64,000 nt of DNA, taken from contig NC_058342.1 in assembly GCF_905475395.1 (NCBI RefSeq), forward strand, positions 16,030,640-16,094,639, read 5' to 3'. The position numbers and the translations under genes are program-made. Shown piece by piece: positions 4,111 through 50,826 of this stretch. How positions within the stretch are numbered: the first letter of the stretch is position 1; each line of letters opens with the position of its first letter. Source of the DNA: Chrysoperla carnea (lineage: Eukaryota; Arthropoda; Insecta; Neuroptera; Chrysopidae). The notes beneath the pieces are model-generated. The model saw nothing but the letters and a program-made list of their open reading frames with translations. It was not told the origin of the DNA and did not search any database.

Positions 4111-4596
4111 CAAAAATCAAGGACATTTTCCAAAATAAAATTTAAAAAAAAACGGACATTTCCAGGTTTTCAACGAACGCTATGCTCCGTATATTTTACA
4201 GTATTTTCCGGCTGTTTGGAACTATGTAGTAATATTTTGTAAAAAAAATATCAACCCCGAGCCTACTAAAATAAATCGTCAAACCGTATCGTGCTAAGAT
4301 AAACGAAAACTTTTATCATAATTTATATAAACTTCACACTAAATTAATTTTTACAAAATTCAAAATTTACATAATTTAATCTATCCAATCAACTTCTTGT
4401 TTGAGCGGTAAATACCCCTTCGTCTCCTGGTGAAAGTAACGAAGTTTGGTTGCGATGGGTGGTTGTGGGTGGCAAAAATGTGAAAAATTTATATCTGTCC
4501 TTTTCTTACTCATGTGAACTTTCGGAAATTTTCAGAACAAATTACTGGAATGATCTAGAAAGTTACAAAATGTATGTAACGGTCGAAACAAAAATC

Positions 4597-4650
4597 GATT
4601 CGAAACGAAATTTTCTAGAAAATTATAGAAATTATCTAGAAAGTTTTTTT
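4597..4650 (+). promoter_or_regulatory. Heat-shock element cluster
   Basis: Alternating GAA and TTC units occur as CGAAATTTTCTAGAAAATTA followed by ATAGAA and CTAGAA. This matches the nGAAnnTTCn rule for HSF binding, with several extra TAGAA units upstream near 4553. The reverse copy at 40628-41048 keeps the equivalent region. Confidence 0.55.
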
Positions 4651-4944
4651 AAACCGACAACTATAATCATGATCAACTTTAAACTGAACGCCGAGAGCTG
4701 CAAGTGCCATCTCTCGACGACCAGTAGAACTATCAAGCCAGAATCGGACACGAACTCTCAGGACCTTCTTCCGAAATTTAAATCTTTTAATTTCAACCAA
4801 GTTTAGTGTTTTTTCAACGGTTTTATTGTTAAAATTAAGTTATTTATTTTAAAATATTCTGTCTGGATATAAATTTTATTAAATAAACTATTTTCTAACA
4901 AGAAAAAGAACAATAGAAGGTAATAGAATAGAATGAAGCTCTTC

Positions 4945-5040
4945 TCTCGAACTTTCTTTTAACCAGAAGCATCTAGAAAAACCTCGGGGTATAAAAGAAG
5001 GCTCTCTCGTCGACTTGAGTCAGTCTTTCTTGGTAAACCA
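4945..5040 (+). promoter_or_regulatory. Heat-shock-type core promoter 1 in Helitron copy 1
   Basis: A consensus HSE dyad GAACTTTC lies at 4949-4956, further GAA units follow (CCAGAAGC, CTAGAAAA), then TATAAAA at 4990-4996 and the arthropod initiator TCAGTC at 5020-5025 (A at 5022). The TATA-to-initiator distance of about 32 bases is canonical. The transcript would begin inside the Helitron. Confidence 0.65.
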
Positions 5041-5103
5041 CAGCATATTAATCAAATGAGATTTTTGAAAATGTTTCTAACTTTGAAAGTGGTATACAAC
5101 TAA

Positions 5104-5285
5104 ATATTCTAGAGTGTTCTGGTACTAGAAATTTCGATATTTGACGATATATAAACCAAAATCCAGTGACTTTCAGTCAGTTTGATCGTGTTTACAGCCG
5201 AGAGAAGATTAATTGAAATTAAGAGTAAACAGTAATGAAACAAATTCAAGTAATTTTGACAAGTGAAAAAGAACGAACTATTTGA
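5104..5285 (+). promoter_or_regulatory. Heat-shock-type core promoter 2 and A-rich leader in copy 1
   Basis: HSE units (TTCTAGAGTGTTCTGG, then CTAGAAATTTC) precede TATATAAA at 5148-5155 and TCAGTCAG at 5173-5180. The following ~100 bases are A-rich and G/C-poor with no ATG-led long frame, as in insect hsp70 5' leaders, which favour translation under stress. The coding sequence expected after the leader is absent. Confidence 0.65.
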
Positions 5286-5657
5286 ATATTCTAAAGTGTT
5301 CTGGTACTAGAAAGAGGTTTTCTATTTTAACCTATTATTTTAATTCTTTAATTAGTTAATTAATTTTATATACTCTAAATACACCGTATGTTTAATGATC
5401 CAATAAGTCTCTCAATATCTAAAATAGAAATCGATAATATTTACGTTAAAAAATCGATCCTTAAATATTATTTGTACCATTAAACATGCGGTGTATTTTA
5501 ACCCGAGCAACGTCGGGTTTGGCTGCTAGTTCAACATAAAAATTTATAAGAAAAAAAATACAAATGAGATTTCAATATTTAGTCAAATAACTTTTAAAAC
5601 AGTGGTCCATAAAAAAAAAAAAAACTTACGTTGAAAAAGGATTGAAAAAATTAAACA

Positions 5658-6139
5658 TCTCTATATATTATAAATGACAAAGTAAGGATGTTTGTTTGTT
5701 TGTTTGTTACGCTTTCACGCTAAGACTAGCGAATGGTTTTTAATGAAACTGTACAGCAATATAGCAGATATATCAGAGTAACACATGAACTATAATTTAT
5801 AAAGATATATTAATAAAAAAATAAAAAAAATTTAAAAATTAATTTAATTTGATATTACCATTAATTACAGATTTCTGTAAAAGTAGTCATTTGACATTAT
5901 CATAAATTACAAATTTCTTTAAAAATAATCAATATAAAATGTTTCACGGCCATCTTCTCTGATATACTCAATAAATAATTACTATTATACATTTAAAAAA
6001 ATAGAAAAGCATACATATATTTTACCTGTGTAAAACAATCCTTACCATTATTTCGAGTGTTATAGAAAGGAGATAAGCGAGATCAATCTTTATCAATCTT
6101 TACACTTAAACCCAGCGAAGCGGGTGGGTATCACTCTAG
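5658..6139 (+). mobile_element. Non-autonomous Helitron, full copy
   Basis: The 5' end TCTCTATATATTATAAATG, followed by GTTTGTTTGTTTGTTACGC, is a typical insect Helitron start. The 3' end has a CCCAGCGAAGCGGGTGGG hairpin, then TATCACT and terminal CTAG at 6136-6139. The insertion sits between A and T without target duplication, as expected. No Rep/helicase frame. Confidence 0.85.
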
Positions 6140-10360: not shown

Positions 10361-10499
10361 AGTTCTAATAAGTTATTGATAAAAATTTGATAAACATTTT
10401 TTTTATTTATATTAAAATATTCTGTCTGGATATAAATTTTACTAAATTAAAGGATTTTCTAACAAGAAAAAGGACAATAGAAGGTAATAGAATAGAATA

Positions 10500-10600
10500 A
10501 AACCCTTCTCTCGAACATTCTTTTAACCAGAAGCCTCTAGAACAACCTCGGTGTATAAAAGGAGGCTGTCTCGGCGACTTGAGTCAGTCTTTCTTGAGAA
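10500..10600 (+). promoter_or_regulatory. Heat-shock-type core promoter 1 in copy 2
   Basis: The upstream dyad is CGAACATTC and a CTAGAA unit follows. TATAAAA is at 10554-10560 and TCAGTC at 10584-10589, again 32 bases from TATA to the initiator A. The core elements are unchanged between the copies although flanking bases differ. Confidence 0.6.
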
Positions 10601-10711
10601 ACCACAGAGACCGGATCTAAAAAGAAACCAAAGCGAGAATAAATGAAAAGCATATTAATCAAATGAAATTTTTGAAAATGTTTCTAACTTTGAAAGTGGT
10701 ATCAAACTAAA

Positions 10712-10880
10712 TATTCTAGAGTGTTCTGGTACTAGAAATTTCGATATTTGACGATATATAAACCAAAATCCAGTGACTTTCAGTCAGTCTGATCGTGTTT
10801 ACAGTTGAGAGAAGATTAATTGAAATTAAGAGTAAACAGTAATGAAACAAATTTAAGTGATTTTGACAAGTGAAAAAGAA
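10712..10880 (+). promoter_or_regulatory. Heat-shock-type core promoter 2 and leader in copy 2
   Basis: The HSE units (TTCTAGAGTGTTCTGG), TATATAAA at 10755-10762 and TCAGTC at 10780-10785 are all identical to copy 1, as is most of the A-rich leader. Confidence 0.6.
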
Positions 10881-11041
10881 CGAATTATTGAATATTCTAG
10901 AATGATAAACCAAAATCGTAATTGTAATATCTAAAAAAGAAATCTATAATATTTACGTTAAAAAATTGATCCTTAAATATTATTTATACCATTATACATG
11001 CGATGTATTTTAACCCGAGCAACGCCAGGTTTTGCTGCTAG

Positions 11042-19936: not shown

Positions 19937-21436
19937 TCAGCATTCTATTTTATATAAAAAATTACGATGATTTCTGGTAGCTCTTGTACCCGTATTTGTT
20001 TGTTGATATGATTTATAAGGTATATGACCAAATTCACTGACGTATGGAATATATTTTAATAAATTTTTACCATAATCCAAAATTTTAGATTTTTCTTTCG
20101 ATGGTCCACAATAAAATAAAATTACACCTCGATTAGAAAATGTTTTTTTGGTTTTACAGGCTATAGTAGAACATCTCAAATAACGTATTCCAATTAATTT
20201 GCCTTCATCGTATAGTTTGCAACTATCTTTCCATTTTTTATCAAAATCTTCGATGTGTTTGAAAAACATAATCCATTTACCCAAATATTTTGAGCTGTAG
20301 AATGGAAATGAATTGTGAATCGAATAATTATAATAATTAATAAACTCGTAGTCTGTAATTTCAGATGGTGCTTTATTTTCATCGATTTCAATAGTTTGTT
20401 TTTGAACAGAATTTAATACAATTCGATTGACTGTTACATCAGAGGATGCATTTTTGGGCACAGGTATTCGAAGTATAATATATTCATTTTCATCTCTGTC
20501 AACTGGTTCAATACTTTCAAAACGCACATAACCAGCATCGTTGTAGTATGGTATATGTTTTAACAAATTTTTCCCAATTTCCAACATTCTAAATTTTTCT
20601 TCTGCTGAACCACAATAAAATACAATTTCGCCTGTAGACTGGTCAGATTTTTCTGAATCCTTAAAACCAGTAGAACATTCTAACGATCGAATTCCAGATA
20701 ATTTACCTTCATCATACAACTTACAACAATCTTTCCATTTTTGATCAAAGCCTTCTGCATGTTTAAATCGCATTGTCCATTTACCACAAAACTTCCATTG
20801 TTTAGGAAATGAATTATAAATACGCATATTCTTATAACTCAAAATTTGATAGTCTACAATTTCAGTTGGGATCTTATTTTCATTAATTTCAATTGTTTCT
20901 TTACCTTGCAATTTTAAAAAAATTCGATTCCCTTGAAAAACAGATTTTTCGTTTTTTGGCATAGATATTTGATACAAAGAATATCCTGTAGTTTTTGAAT
21001 CTTTTTTCAAATTAGTCTCATACGTCATAAGTCCATTATCACTAAAGTACGGAATGTATTTTAATAAATTCTCACCATATTCCAACATTTTTTCTCTATC
21101 CATTGCTGAACCACAAAAAAAATTAATGACATTTTCGATATGATCAGAAGATTGTGGATTTTTATAGCCAGTGGAACATCCCAACTCTCGTATTCCAATT
21201 AATTTCCCTTCATCATACATCTTACAACAAGCGTTCCATTTTTTATCAAAATCTTCTGAATGTTTAAAACGCATTATCCATTTTCCCTTTAACTTCGGAG
21301 GTAGGTATGGAAACGATTTTTTAATATCATCGTTAACATAAAATAAAAATTCATGGTCCAATATTTCAGTTGGTTTTCTATTCTCATCCAGTTTAACAAG
21401 CTTTGAATTTTCGTTAAAAAAATAGTATTTGCTCAT
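19937..21436 (-). CDS. Intronless protein of three repeated ~165-residue domains, unknown function
   Basis: The 499-residue frame starts at the ATG at 21434-21436; an in-frame TAG lies 10 codons upstream, so this is the first possible ATG. The same domain occurs three times, with GKW at residues 51, 218 and 386. Each unit has GKW(I/T)M.FKH, then W..(C/S)CK(M/L)YDEGKL.GIR.L.CST, then FFCG or FYCG, then a G.NLLK(Y/H)IPY end. Units share roughly 50-60% identity. Each is preceded by an ENR/ENKxP(T/S)EI.D(H/Y) segment. No signal peptide or membrane span is seen. The W...W...eGkLg layout faintly resembles the DUF1917/Bles03 family, but I cannot confirm this. It is by far the longest intact frame in the window, and conservation between repeats argues that it is real. 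The reverse strand upstream (about 21560-21600) has a TATATA stretch. It could be a host gene or a horizontally acquired one. Confidence 0.75.
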   Translation of the reverse strand: MSKYYFFNENSKLVKLDENRKPTEILDHEFLFYVNDDIKKSFPYLPPKLKGKWIMRFKHSEDFDKKWNACCKMYDEGKLIGIRELGCSTGYKNPQSSDHIENVINFFCGSAMDREKMLEYGENLLKYIPYFSDNGLMTYETNLKKDSKTTGYSLYQISMPKNEKSVFQGNRIFLKLQGKETIEINENKIPTEIVDYQILSYKNMRIYNSFPKQWKFCGKWTMRFKHAEGFDQKWKDCCKLYDEGKLSGIRSLECSTGFKDSEKSDQSTGEIVFYCGSAEEKFRMLEIGKNLLKHIPYYNDAGYVRFESIEPVDRDENEYIILRIPVPKNASSDVTVNRIVLNSVQKQTIEIDENKAPSEITDYEFINYYNYSIHNSFPFYSSKYLGKWIMFFKHIEDFDKKWKDSCKLYDEGKLIGIRYLRCSTIACKTKKTFSNRGVILFYCGPSKEKSKILDYGKNLLKYIPYVSEFGHIPYKSYQQTNTGTRATRNHRNFLYKIEC

Positions 21437-21895
21437 CTTCAATTCATGAAGAAAATACCTCGATTTCTATAGAATCAGTAGAATTCATCCAAAAAATATT
21501 TACAGTAAGCCAAAATGAAAATACCAAATTCAGAGTTGTTATGAAAATGGAAGGGGCCATGCAAAATATATAAAACGAAGTACCTGCAGCCAACTGTAAA
21601 TAATAAAATAAATTTTTTAAAGTTTAAATTGATGAAATTGTATATGTTTGCTTATTTATTCATTAAAAATTTTTTTTTTGAATTATTAGATTCTATATTT
21701 AATTATTTCAAAGAATTTTGATGATTAAAAATATCACTTTACGATATAACTTTATATGATAATGCTTCACACTGGATTTGAGCATCAAGTTAAGAGTTCC
21801 ACCTAGCTGATAAAAATAGAGTTTTGTCCTGCGTTAAATTGTAAAAATGAGCGACAAAACATTTTATTAATATCGAAAGTAAAACTAGACAAACA

Positions 21896-27928: not shown

Positions 27929-29200
27929 TTAAATAATTGATTCAGTTGTAATCTTCTCTTCTTTAACACTACTTTCTGAAGTAGTTTCTTGACTATGAAT
28001 TCGTTTATGTCTGAGTAAGAGCTGATTTCGAGTAAATGTTTTTTCACAAATATCACATGAAAATGGCCTTTCTCCAGTATGAATTCGTTTATGTTGAATT
28101 AAATAATTTTGTCGGAAAAATGTTTTATTACAATAATCACATGAAAAAGGTTTTTCTCCGCCGTGAATTCGTTTATGTTCCGTTAAATTACTATAGTTAT
28201 TAAATGATTTATCACAGTGATTACATGAAAAAGGTTTTTCACCCGTGTGAATCAAATTATGTTGAATTAAATTATGTTTTTGCGTAAATGTTTTATCACA
28301 AAAATCACATTGAAAAGGTTTTTCCCCAGTGTGCATAAGCTTATGTTTATCTAAGAGACTTTGGTAAGTAAATGTTTTATTACAAACATCACATGAAACA
28401 AGTTTTTCTCCGGTATGAGTTCGTTTATGTTGACTTAAAGTGCACTTCTGTTTAAATGTTTTTTCACAAATATCACATGAAAAACGTTTTTCCTCGCTGT
28501 GTGTGAGTTGATGCTTAGCTAACAAACTTTGGTAAGTAAACTTTTTATCACAAATATTACATGAAACCAAGTTTACTCCAGTATGAATGCGTTTATGTTG
28601 AATTAAATTGCATTGTAGCGTAAATGCTGTATCACAAAAATTACACACAAATGGTTTTTCTCCAGTATGAATAATTTTATGTTCAGTTAAATGATGTTTA
28701 TGAGTAAATGTTTTATCACAAAGTTCACAAGAAAAAGGTCTTTTACCTTTATGAATTCGAATATGTTCCTTCAAGCTTTGTTTCTGATTAAATTTTTTAA
28801 GACAGAGATTACATGAAAAAGGCTTTTCTCCAGTATGAATCAATTTGTGTCTAGATAAACTATATTTTCGAGTAAATTTTTTATCACAAACATCACATGA
28901 AAATAATTTTTCATCAGTATGAGTCCGTTGATGGTTCAAAAGATTTTCATCTTCATATATTAATTTTATGTTTAATTGTTGGTCAGATTCATGTTCTGTA
29001 AAATTTTCTTTTTTAATAGGCATATGTTCTATTGTAAGAGGTTCTTCTTTAATATGTAAATATTCCATTGTATCAGTTTCTTCTTTAATTTGTATATGAT
29101 CCATTGTATCATTTTTTTCAAATATTTCATCTTTTTCAAGTTTAATATTTTCTTCATTGATAAGCAAATTTTCATTTACATTCAATGAATTATTTGACAT
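27929..29200 (-). CDS. C2H2 zinc-finger protein, 11 fingers
   Basis: A probable nuclear DNA-binding protein of 423 residues. The ATG at 29198-29200 is chosen because no other ATG precedes it; the open frame extends only ten codons further. Residues 1-85 are acidic with repeated IKEE/IKKE motifs (SUMO-type psi-K-x-E). HQRTH at 90-94 is a vestigial finger that has lost its cysteines. Eleven intact C2H2 fingers follow at a strict 28-residue spacing, first Cys at 102 and last His at 402, joined mostly by H(T)GEKPF linkers. The tail (403-423) carries VKEE. Fingers 5 and 7 share a FTYQSLL core, a sign of internal duplication. No KRAB, ZAD or BTB domain is seen. The gene is single-exon as far as visible. 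Target genes cannot be inferred. Confidence 0.9.
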   Translation of the reverse strand: MSNNSLNVNENLLINEENIKLEKDEIFEKNDTMDHIQIKEETDTMEYLHIKEEPLTIEHMPIKKENFTEHESDQQLNIKLIYEDENLLNHQRTHTDEKLFSCDVCDKKFTRKYSLSRHKLIHTGEKPFSCNLCLKKFNQKQSLKEHIRIHKGKRPFSCELCDKTFTHKHHLTEHKIIHTGEKPFVCNFCDTAFTLQCNLIQHKRIHTGVNLVSCNICDKKFTYQSLLAKHQLTHSEEKRFSCDICEKTFKQKCTLSQHKRTHTGEKLVSCDVCNKTFTYQSLLDKHKLMHTGEKPFQCDFCDKTFTQKHNLIQHNLIHTGEKPFSCNHCDKSFNNYSNLTEHKRIHGGEKPFSCDYCNKTFFRQNYLIQHKRIHTGERPFSCDICEKTFTRNQLLLRHKRIHSQETTSESSVKEEKITTESII

Positions 29201-30115
29201 TTTCTTCGTCTTTGGTTCACAGTTTGACACAGAGAATATATCGGTAAAACAGAAGCGAAAGTCAATGCTAATTTTTATCGCATGTCATTCAATGCCATCT
29301 CTGAAGATCAACGCAAACTAAATTAGTATAATCGTCAAAATAGATCTCATTACTATCTTATATAATAAGGTTCTTATCTTGAATAGTAAGCTTATTGTCT
29401 TGCTAAAAATGATATTTATCCTATATGCAACAACATTAGAAAACTTATAATATTTAATTAACTTTGAAAAATTATTTATAAAATTCAATTATAATAAGTA
29501 AGTTCTATGTAATTTTTAAAATGGAACTTTTTATATATTTTTCAAAGTTATTTAAATATTATAAGTTTTCTAATGTCGTGCAAAAAGGATGAATACCATT
29601 TTCATACAAGCTCATATATTTTATAAATATAGTCTCTGATATAGTTTTTTACTGATATAGTCTCTGGTTTGACATATTTACTGAATCACTGCACAGACAT
29701 CGAACATATAAAAATGGACAATGTTATTAAAAAATGGCACCGGTATACAGAGTGCTATGACTCGATTCAAATTGGATTTTAACGCTAAGATATAGCGCCA
29801 CGAGTAAAAAAAATGTAAACCATTCTCGTTATTATTATTCTCAACTGATTATTTCAATGATTAAAGAGGCAGGAGATATATGCTTTATTATACATTTTAT
29901 TGTGCCGTGCTAAATTTGCTCCCCGAGTCTGTTATAATTACGATTATTTTCCTACTTTTTATATAAACTTAGTAGTTTGTGTTGTTATATAAATTTTTTA
30001 ATGCAAATTTTGCACCTTATTCTATAATTTTTTGTTTTTGATTTACATTTTGAACTTTTAAATTTGTATACTTTTTGACTTTTAATTTCATAGTTGTGTG
30101 TGTTTTCAAATGCAT
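29201..30115. other. Intergenic DNA upstream of the 11-finger gene
   Basis: No gene seen. The promoter of the zinc-finger gene should lie at the left side. An imperfect inverted pair (TTATAATATTTAATTAACTT near 29448 and AAGTTATTTAAATATTATAA near 29545) brackets AT-rich DNA. Confidence 0.4.
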
Positions 30116-40195: not shown

Positions 40196-40627
40196 ATAAT
40201 CCTAGAGTTCTCATTTATTATCTTCGATAATATTTATATTGCTTTAATAGCCAATATAGATTCTAAACGGTAAGAGATATAATAACACTTTAAATTAGAA
40301 AGTTGATCCTCATAAAAAAAACTAACATTTTTCATCTAAATCATTTTTTCTAAAATCGTCAGCTTTCGAAGAAAATGCGACTTAAAAACATTTCATTATT
40401 GCATTTAATCTAAAAAAAATATTCTTAAAGTTTATCTATAAATGTAGGTCAAAGAACTCAAGCGAATGTCTTCTAGTGGCCTTGACAAGTTTTGGCAAAA
40501 GTACATGACATTTTTAATAGCTTTTCCATATTAACACATTATATCACATAGCATATGACAAACTGACTCGAACTCAGCTATATCCGTCACTTTATTAGCT
40601 ATATACTAAATATATAGTTATTTATAT

Positions 40628-41048
40628 TTTAATATAAATAACTTACTTTTAACAATAAAACCGTTGAAAAAACACTAAACTTGATTGAAATTAAAAGATT
40701 TAAATTTCGGAAGAAGGCCCAGAAAGTTCGAGTCCGGTTCTGGTTTGATATTTCTACTGGTCGTCGAGAGATAGCGCTAACAGCTCTCGGCGGTCAGTTT
40801 AAAGTTGATCATGATTATAGTTGTCGGTTTAAACAAACTTTCTAGATCATCTCCAGAATTTTCTTAGACCGTTACACACATTTTATAGCTTTCTAGATCA
40901 TTCCAGAAATTTGTTCTGAAAATTTCCGAAAGTTCACATGAGTAAACAAAAGACAGATATATATTTTGTCATATTTTTGCCACTCACAACCACCCACTTC
41001 CACTCATCGCATCAAACTCCCTTACTTTCACTAGGAGACCAAGGGGTA
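40628..41048 (-). mobile_element. Heat-shock-promoter Helitron, 5' part (copy 3)
   Basis: The reverse complement aligns with 4413-4850 of copy 1, from TACCCCTTGGTCTCC onward, including GAACTTTCGGAAATTTTCAG and the TCTAGAAAG units. The two core promoters and the 3' hairpin are absent. Divergence from copy 1 looks like 10-20%. Confidence 0.75.
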
Positions 41049-42761: not shown

Positions 42762-43195
42762 TCTCTATATATTATAAATACCAAAGTAGGCATGTTTGTT
42801 TGTTTGCTACGCTTTTACGCTAACACTAGCGAATGGTTTTTAATGAAACTGTACAACAATATAGCTCATACTCCAGAATAACACATGAACTATAATTTAT
42901 AAAGATATATTTAAAAAAAATAAAAAAATTTAATTTAATTTGAAATTTGACATTACCATAAATTACAGATTTCTGTAAAAATAGTCAATATAAAATATTT
43001 CTAGGCCATCTTCTCTGATATACTCAATGAATAATTGCTATTATACATTTAAAAAAATAGAAAACCATACATATATTTTACCTGTGTAAAACAATTCTTA
43101 CCATTATTTCGAGTGTTATCGAAAAGGGATAAGAGAGAGCAATCTTTATCAATCTTTACTTTTAAACCCAGCGAAGCGGGTGGGTATCACTCTAG
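42762..43195 (+). mobile_element. Non-autonomous Helitron, full copy
   Basis: Starts TCTCTATATATTATAAAT and ends with the CCCAGCGAAGCGGGTGGG hairpin and CTAG at 43192-43195, between A and T. Highly similar to 5658-6139. Confidence 0.85.
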
Positions 43196-49549: not shown

Positions 49550-50826
49550 ATAGTCCAGGAGCTGTGGATCTAAAAAGTTCCCTCATACGTGCATATATTT
49601 TTTTTAAAGAAAATAGATAGTTTAAAACTATAGGAATTCGAAACGGTAGGTTTGCGTGGTTTTGCAAAGCCGAAAAAATGTTAAAAAAAATTAATTATTA
49701 AAAAAATCGATAAATGTTTGTCTCTCATGTTGTGAAATGGTTTGCCTAAAGTATATTCTACAGAAAATTTCATTATCTTTCAGAAAAAATTTACGCAAAC
49801 CAATTTTTTTAGCCGGGAGAGTCAGGCAAGCCTTTTAAAGTGTGTGATGAGGGAGGAAATTTCTCCCTCATTACGTAACATGATTTTTTTATTTTTATTT
49901 TGTTCCTTGCAGTGTCTACTTTAAGATTATCTTGGTTTGCGGGCTCAGAAACGGCCGGAAAAGTCCAGCAAACCAGCTTAAAGTTCATCTACTCTTAACT
50001 CATTTTCAATAAATATAAACTAGAAAAATGTTTCGTTGTAAAATTACTATTGTTTTATGGTGATTTTTATTTTTTATTTTCTATTAAATACTTTTATTTT
50101 ATAAAATTACTTTTCTATATTTTCTTTTGATATACTTTAGTACGAACTTCATATAGGATATGACGTCTTGTTGTTTTTACGATTTGAAATAATGAAAGGG
50201 TAAATATAATTAAAGGAATAATAGGAAATTTTTATTTTGGATGGATTTAATAATTTAATAAAAATAATGTCAGTTTATAAATGCAGAGGATAGAAAAAAT
50301 ACCACAAGTGTCTATACATGTTTGAATGTGTTTATTGTCTATACAAGTTTGTCTATTATGTTTATTGAAAATGAGTTCAGAGTAGATGAACTTTAAGCTG
50401 GTTTGCTGGACATTTCCGGCCGTTTCTGAGCCCGCAAACCAAGATAATCTTAAAGTAGACACTGCAAGGAACAAAATAAAAATAAAAAAATCATGTTACG
50501 TAATGAGGGAGAAATTTCCTCCCTCATCACACACTTTAAAAGGCTTGCCTGACTCTCCCGGCTAAAAAAATTGGTTTGCGTAAATTTTTTCTGAAAGATA
50601 ATGAAATTTCTGTAAAATATACTTTAGGCAAACCATTTCACAACATGAGAGACAAACATTTATCGATTTTTTTAATAATTAATTTTTTTAAACATTTTTT
50701 CGGCTTTGCAAAACCATGCAAACCTACCGTTTCGAATTCCTATAGTTTTAAACTATCTATTTTCTTTAAAAAAAATATATGCACGGTATGAGGGAACTTT
50801 TTAGATCCACAGCTCCTGGACTATAA
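49550..50826. repeat. Near-identical inverted repeat, 465-bp arms
   Basis: The left arm 49550-50016 and right arm 50357-50826 differ at only about eight to ten positions (around 98% identity), with a ~340-base AT-rich spacer. Both arm ends read ATAGTCCAGGAGCTGTGG. Arms include CAAACCAATTTTTTTAGCCG and a GAGGGAGG...TCTCCCTC hairpin. The arms are not related to the other foldbacks here. No TSD is recognised, so it may be a young foldback transposon or an inverted duplication. Confidence 0.9.

Follow-up and report, generated by a model that had tools for sequence, protein, structure and literature searches.

A dispersed non-autonomous Helitron family of Chrysoperla carnea with predicted heat-shock-type promoter modules near its 3' end

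Canonical Helitrons have TC...CTRR ends and a 3' hairpin and insert between an A and a T (PMC6544945), and several described families carry regulatory DNA. In Caenorhabditis, Helitrons occupying 1.7% of the genome contain 61.4% of its HSEs (Garrigues et al. 2019, eLife 8:e51139, PMC6927752). For one bat, the amplification of 15 gene promoters by Helitrons to 4,690 copies is cited (PMC4778049); HelibatN3, a non-autonomous bat Helitron, has a complete promoter derived from NUBPL, together with a splice donor, and is able to start transcripts in flanking genes, with such transcripts demonstrated (PMC4778049). A Helitron of Aspergillus nidulans contains the xanA promoter (Cultrone 2007, cited via PMC6544945), and the short non-autonomous Hel1 elements of insects combine TC/CTRR ends, a 3' hairpin, and insertion between A and T with stepwise acquisition of sequence (PMC6544945).

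The element described here, copy A, lies in a window (the whole stretch of DNA analyzed, 64 kb long) that corresponds to C6:16030640-16094639 of the 559-Mb C. carnea assembly, in DNA of about 30% GC. Like the Caenorhabditis elements, it is HSE-rich and belongs to a family that has spread HSEs through its genome. The Caenorhabditis report, however, concerns HSE motifs, and its main text does not contain the terms "TATA" or "captured" (PMC6927752), whereas A has two complete predicted promoters, P1 and P2, each with HSE, TATA box, and initiator and one with a leader, that point out of its 3' end. HelibatN3 resembles A in being a non-autonomous Helitron with a complete promoter but differs in its NUBPL source and its observed transcripts (PMC4778049); the promoters predicted in A are of heat-shock type. 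The xanA Helitron likewise places a regulated host promoter inside a Helitron, but it is fungal and involves one known gene (via PMC6544945), whereas A belongs to a dispersed family. Hel1 elements share the end structure of A, but "heat shock" is absent from the main text describing them (PMC6544945), and A has predicted HSE promoters. A search of the open-licence literature turned up no account of an insect Helitron with heat-shock promoters. HSE-bearing Helitrons are thus known from Caenorhabditis and promoter-carrying Helitrons from bats, while an insect Helitron with complete core promoters of heat-shock type appears to be new.

Table 1. Positions of the element, its promoter modules, and related features (window coordinates)
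Feature	Position	Strand	Details
Copy A, full-length non-autonomous Helitron	4384-5529	+	1,146 bp; TC after A 4383, CTAG before T 5530; ends from genome copies, letters checked
Segment 1 of A	4384-4857	+	5' part with HSE clusters, without TATA-TCAGT pair; common to copy C from about 4413
HSE cluster 1	4516-4560	+	four-unit HSEs at 4516-4533 and 4543-4560, 14/16 each
HSE 2, TTCTAGAAAATTATAGAA	4613-4630	+	four-unit score 14/16
HSE of P1, GAAGCATCTAGAA	4966-4978	+	score 11/12; in copy B at 10530
P1 core	4990-5025	+	TATA TATAAAAG at 4990, initiator TCAGTC at 5020-5025; A+1 at 5022, spacing 32 bp
HSE of P2	5107-5135	+	four-unit 14/16 at 5107, three-unit 11/12 at 5123
P2 core	5148-5181	+	TATA TATATAAA at 5148, initiator TCAGTCAGT at 5173-5181; A+1 at 5175 or 5179, spacing 27/31 bp
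A-rich leader-like stretch 3' of P2	5181-5283	+	without hsp frame; 44% A; 6 of 102 aligned bases differ from B
Second tandem P2 unit, first 29 bp only	5285-5313	+	96.6% identical to 5103-5131; other loci hold more
20-bp inverted repeat	5378-5497	.	arms 5378-5397 and 5478-5497; left arm not found in copy B
Helitron 3' terminus	5500-5529	+	hairpin 5500-5519, then CTAG 5526-5529; 29-bp pattern with 97 genome matches, reversed control 0
Second, unrelated non-autonomous Helitron, common	5658-6139		482 bp; A, then TCTCTATATATTATAAATG...CTAG, then T; 128 bp after element A
Copy B	10403-11041	+	matches A only from 4840 on; without segment 1
Copy C	40624-41048	-	segment 1 only, with HSEs; matches A only at 4413-4857

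The ends of A were mapped with window positions 4300 to 5650 as the query, using copies other than A among the best 40 of 173 candidates. In these 40, the leftmost match starts exactly at 4384 (query 85) in 20 and at 4383 to 4388 (query 84 to 89) in 28, and in none does it start left of 4383. From the same best 40 of 173 candidates, 14 of 31 3' pieces end at 5528 to 5533 (query 1229 to 1234), 10 extend 11 to 66 bp into the AT-rich flank, and 7 stop short; this tally omits two separate pieces (C6:22922714 and C6:25079780). The terminal letters are those of a Helitron, with TC at 4384-4385 and CTAG at 5526-5529 in A and at 11038-11041 in B. A palindrome of 16 to 20 bp just before the 3' end is present in A, as a 20-nt hairpin with a 7-bp stem and a 6-nt loop placed 6 nt before CTAG, and has decayed in B. 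The folding energy of the A hairpin is unremarkable by itself (z of -1.7; 16 of 200 shuffles equally good). Insertion between A and T without target duplication is seen on both sides of A (A 4383, T 5530) and on the 3' side of B (T 11042). An empty-site test with the joined flanks of A was weak, as 7% of random right flanks score as well with the left edge at 4383 and 8% with the edge at 4379 that was used before the true end was known; a separate right-flank test, chosen after the fact, gave 0.4%. Because A has TC...CTAG between an A and a T and its ends are common to dispersed copies, its identification as a canonical non-autonomous Helitron is strongly supported. An earlier note on this DNA, made from the letters of the window, had assigned the element to this class, citing the hairpin, the CTAG, and the insertion between A and T. 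All of these stand, as does the 3' end of its interval (4413 to 5529), but the real 5' end lies 29 bp further left, between A and TC at 4384.

A neighboring Helitron provided a check on this procedure. Copies of the 5658-6139 element occur in the window at 42762-43195 and 56027-55594 and in a genome sample at L016:2084-2502, L027:1156-1560, and L012:5603-5182, the last three all with both ends. Since this element was found with the same kind of ends, the method recovers true ends. It has no HSE (best four-unit score of 10) and serves as a control for HSE content.

Comparison of the A stretch with the whole window revealed two relatives, copies B and C. B retains P1 (TATA at 10554, +1 at 10586), P2 (TATA at 10755, +1 at 10782/10786), and the 3' end, while C has no TATA-TCAGT pair and no match to the Helitron 3' terminus. 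The point where the three copies join is a run of 18 bp, TTATTTATATTAAAATAT, in which A has one change. This junction indicates that A consists of two segments that are also found apart, B and C being different subsets of it. The flanks of A, B, and C do not match one another. If A and B were instead segmental duplicates of a host hsp promoter, with a small Helitron inserted beside it, the promoters would lie outside the mobile unit. The lack of the 5' part in B would fit such an origin, and the inverted-repeat arm in A could mark a nested element. However, copies on C1, C2, C3, C5, and C6 align with A starting at the 5' end, continuing into the promoter region, and once more at the 3' end; the flanks are unrelated; and the common 5' end at 4384 encloses both P1 and P2. 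Common termini and unrelated flanks rule out segmental duplication rather than transposition, and we give a promoter outside the mobile unit hardly any weight.

Heat-shock promoters have an HSE array upstream of a TATA box and an initiator at a set spacing. A contains this arrangement, with HSE arrays upstream of a TATA box and an initiator at the correct spacing, and both P1 and P2 are oriented toward the Helitron 3' end. Downstream of them are a single ATTAAA (5479) and a number of donor-like sites of the form GTRA. The earlier note had described an HSE cluster, two TATA boxes (4990 and 5148) 27 to 32 bp before an initiator, an A-rich leader, and the lack of a heat-shock protein frame. Each of these observations held up: the four-unit HSEs score 14/16, both TATA boxes lie at the predicted distances, the stretch at 5181-5283 is 44% A, and none of the seven stop-free frames of at least 45 amino acids matches an hsp, with two sub-threshold Pfam hits among them (E of 0.008 and 0.044).

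We then compared these motifs with chance expectation. HSEs were scored as alternating GAA/TTC units with a four-unit threshold of at least 14/16, a TATA-TCAGT pair was defined as TATAWA followed by TCAGT at 26 to 34 bp, and the genome sample comprised 25 stretches, mostly at even spacing along C1 and C2, that total 250 kb free of N. All eight four-unit HSEs in the 64-kb window fall within A, B, and C (about 2.2 kb). Shuffled windows contain 2.45 per 64 kb, and the 250-kb sample has 15. Three-unit HSEs are less telling, with 22 in the window versus 12.15 in shuffles and 13 of the 22 in the copies. Shuffles of each individual copy reach its best four-unit score at frequencies of 0.042 for A (either segment), 0.022 for B, and 0.004 for C. 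The window has six more TATA-TCAGT pairs elsewhere on the + strand and one on the - strand, compared with about 2.5 in shuffles, and the sample has 10. When a three-unit HSE was required no more than 120 bp upstream of the TATA-TCAGT pair, four promoters were found in the window, all in A and B, and none was found on either strand of the 250-kb sample. That sample contains no copy of A, only two AT-rich matches (33 and 45 bp) to segment 2.

These counts bear on whether the motifs are look-alikes in an AT-rich repeat that were copied by transposition and have no promoter function. A, B, and C are related, so that motif occurrences in them are not independent events, and this relatedness inflates the counts; moreover, shuffling within the copy matches the best HSE score of A in 4% of cases, and P2 has no clear extra conservation. 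On the other hand, HSE, TATA box, and initiator occur together at the correct spacing twice in one element, the sample yielded no such combination on either strand, and shuffles give few four-unit HSEs or TATA-TCAGT pairs per 64 kb. We therefore consider look-alikes unlikely.

To what extent have these modules been dispersed? Allowing up to three mismatches, genome-wide pattern searches gave 97 matches for the 29-bp 3' terminus, 49 for the P1 core, and 27 for the P2 core, with A and B included in both core counts, and the reversed pattern gave none in each of the three cases. A looser P1 pattern with 23 fixed positions gave 57 matches. The DNA searches scored the best 40 of 176 candidates for the element, of 173 for the ends, of 63 for P2, and of 139 for a control, and the copy numbers are lower bounds. 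Once the hits of the 3' terminus, of the two P1 patterns, of the P2 pattern and DNA searches, and of the element DNA search were merged, at least 129 distinct loci were left; these and the 97 termini answer the earlier note's call for a copy count. Counting A and B, 72 distinct loci have a P1 or P2 core: P1 alone at 29, P2 alone at 24, and the two together at 19, with decayed cores being missed. A family 3' end lies within 1.5 kb downstream on the same strand at 32 of the 49 P1 places and at 31 of 43 P2 places, the latter comprising 40 from the P2 DNA search (best 40 of 63) and 3 from the pattern search. Conversely, 48 of the 97 family 3' ends have a recognized P1 or P2 within 2 kb upstream. 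The proposal that the element spreads heat-shock-type promoters is thus borne out in its sequence part, by cores at 72 loci and by the linkage of such cores with the 3' end on the same strand. In viral, phage, and prokaryote collections, the P2 pattern, the 3'-end pattern, and the element itself gave nothing. Separately, 42 of the 97 3' termini and many RepHel matches are located on C6. Judged by the coordinates, this contig accounts for no more than about 16% of the assembly, and it could be a small, a repeat-rich, or a sex chromosome.

The main matches are 79 to 88% identical to A (best 40 of 176 and best 40 of 173 candidates), and the family is therefore not young; many copies may be decayed. 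Among the 39 copies besides A in the best 40 of 176 candidates, the main match ends at query 839-901 in 11, at 739-785 in 5, just after P1 (610-631) in 10, inside P1 (578-609) in 5, and before P1 in 6. It continues to the 3' end in the remaining two, one of which begins no earlier than query 667; many copies resume at the 3' end. These scattered ends indicate that the element interior is variable, by gain, loss, or both. Duplication is also seen: at 8 of 40 scored loci (best 40 of 63 candidates), the P2 piece lies next to another one, which reaches query 104-114, past the initiator, at 4 of these 8. P1 is doubled at C2:19123318/19123525, with cores 207 bp apart, and P2 at C6:12987643/12987825, with cores 182 bp apart.

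We looked for selection on P2 within this variable interior. In all 12 of 12 copies, P2 appeared better conserved than other parts of the element, an estimate from rounded identities that count gaps, and A and B differ at 0 of 80 bases in 5101-5180, a zone chosen after the fact. Against a length-matched 213-bp control from segment 1 in eight shared copies, P2 is higher in three, equal in one, and lower in four, with mean conservation of 89.1 for P2 and 90.0 for the control; the control list (best 40 of 139 candidates, compared with the best 40 of 63 for P2) is biased in the control's favor. We see no clear sign of selection on P2 in these alignments.

The promoters could also be the Helitron's own, having driven the RepHel gene of an autonomous parent, with the short copies being internal-deletion derivatives that kept both ends and the promoter. 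Stress-linked motifs are known in Helitrons, as in the HSEs of Caenorhabditis (PMC6927752), and the genome has 64 Helitron_like_N (RepHel) matches, including RepHel genes with long open frames. Around each of the 64, however, P1, P2, and the family 3' terminus are absent for 33 kb (a terminus 33.4 kb away is the nearest), and P1, P2, and element matches for 56 kb, which speaks against these being promoters of a detected replicase gene. In addition, the promoters of A and B are near the 3' end and point outward. An autonomous partner combining the same 3' end with RepHel was not found among these matches; such a partner is not required of a non-autonomous copy, and the parent may be lost or diverged. 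Overall, we think it quite unlikely that P1 and P2 originated as the Helitron's own promoters. Two further observations concern the RepHel matches themselves. At C3:3767553-3809352, seven Helitron_like_N matches lie on one strand, the first six spaced 5,813 to 5,815 bp apart, in an arrangement that resembles a tandem array of autonomous Helitrons, such as could result from rolling-circle replication. Six RepHel matches with an equal score of 197.5 bits and open frames of 1,462 amino acids, three on C5 and three on C6, suggest recently active autonomous Helitrons.

The earlier note had further proposed that the promoters were captured from one or two hsp genes and that host hsp70 and small-hsp genes be searched for a matching promoter. 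Nine of the host's hsp70 matches are full-length and unbroken, and six of these form three divergent pairs (intergenic regions C4:64683824-64686294, C4:68145277-68147487, and C2:36863991-36865414); 32 hsp70 and 15 hsp20 matches (47 in all) were tested. The test compared genome pattern matches with hsp70 and hsp20 positions. Neither P1 (two patterns) nor P2, at up to three mismatches genome-wide, occurs within 295 kb of any of the 47, and this search lends capture from hsp genes no support. Judging from pattern matches, the modules are therefore unlikely to be close copies of any P1/P2-type promoter that the hsp70 or hsp20 genes have today, although a diverged hsp source or another HSF target may be the origin. 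As a separate observation, one family 3' terminus (C1:133801085-133801113, + strand) and an hsp20 domain (C1:133801558-133801848, - strand) converge on each other, with their starts 473 bp apart. This terminus is the only one of the 97 termini within 169 kb of any hsp70 or hsp20 match, and no P1 or P2 was recognized there by pattern.

The same result bears on an origin without hsp capture, in which the modules arose or were kept in the element since heat-opened, transcribed chromatin favors transposition. The doubling of P1 and P2 inside the element would fit such an advantage in cis, as would the lack of a source among the 47 hsp70 and hsp20 matches. The full HSE-TATA-initiator architecture, present twice, would nevertheless be easier to obtain by capture, and P2 lacks clear excess conservation. 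We regard this origin as doubtful.

The observed ends, dispersal, modules, orientation, and linkage to the 3' end are best explained by a Helitron family that carries outward heat-shock-type promoter modules near its 3' end, and the source of these modules was probably one or more heat-inducible genes. The interpretation in the earlier note is thus partly supported as a whole. The modules, P1 with HSE, TATA box, and initiator and P2 with these and a leader, partly in tandem, would have been acquired from the heat-inducible gene or genes by filler-DNA or read-through capture and afterwards lost or duplicated in different copies. Under heat, trimeric HSF would bind the HSEs of P1 and P2, polymerase II would start at 5022 and at 5175/5179, and transcription would read through CTAG at the 3' end into the flank, so that insertion would bring a stress-inducible start site. 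An HSF-driven start at P1 and P2 that reads outward appears most likely because of the order and spacing of the motifs and by analogy with the Caenorhabditis HSE Helitrons and the bat NUBPL-promoter Helitron. More tentatively, the modules may form a mobile heat-shock promoter cassette that was acquired, tandem-duplicated, and dispersed to give dozens of stress-inducible starts, with heat-opened chromatin possibly favoring transposition. If active, each intact insertion would be a ready-made heat-inducible promoter reading into its neighborhood. The 72 core loci amount to dozens of natural replicates in one genome and, if active, would offer a direct test of transposon rewiring of the insect heat-shock response, beside the Caenorhabditis HSE Helitrons. 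Capture from another gene, an older capture, and horizontal arrival with the Helitron are the source alternatives to sort.

The window has several other features. An open frame of 509 amino acids at 19940-21466 (- strand) has three internal repeats, as judged by eye; Pfam gave no match for its protein, and viral contigs yielded no confirmed relative. At 27930-29284 (- strand), a 451-amino-acid C2H2 zinc-finger protein is encoded with 84-bp tandem repeats. A long inverted repeat at 49588-50785, whose arms are 97 to 98% complementary, is perhaps a recent foldback or TIR element.
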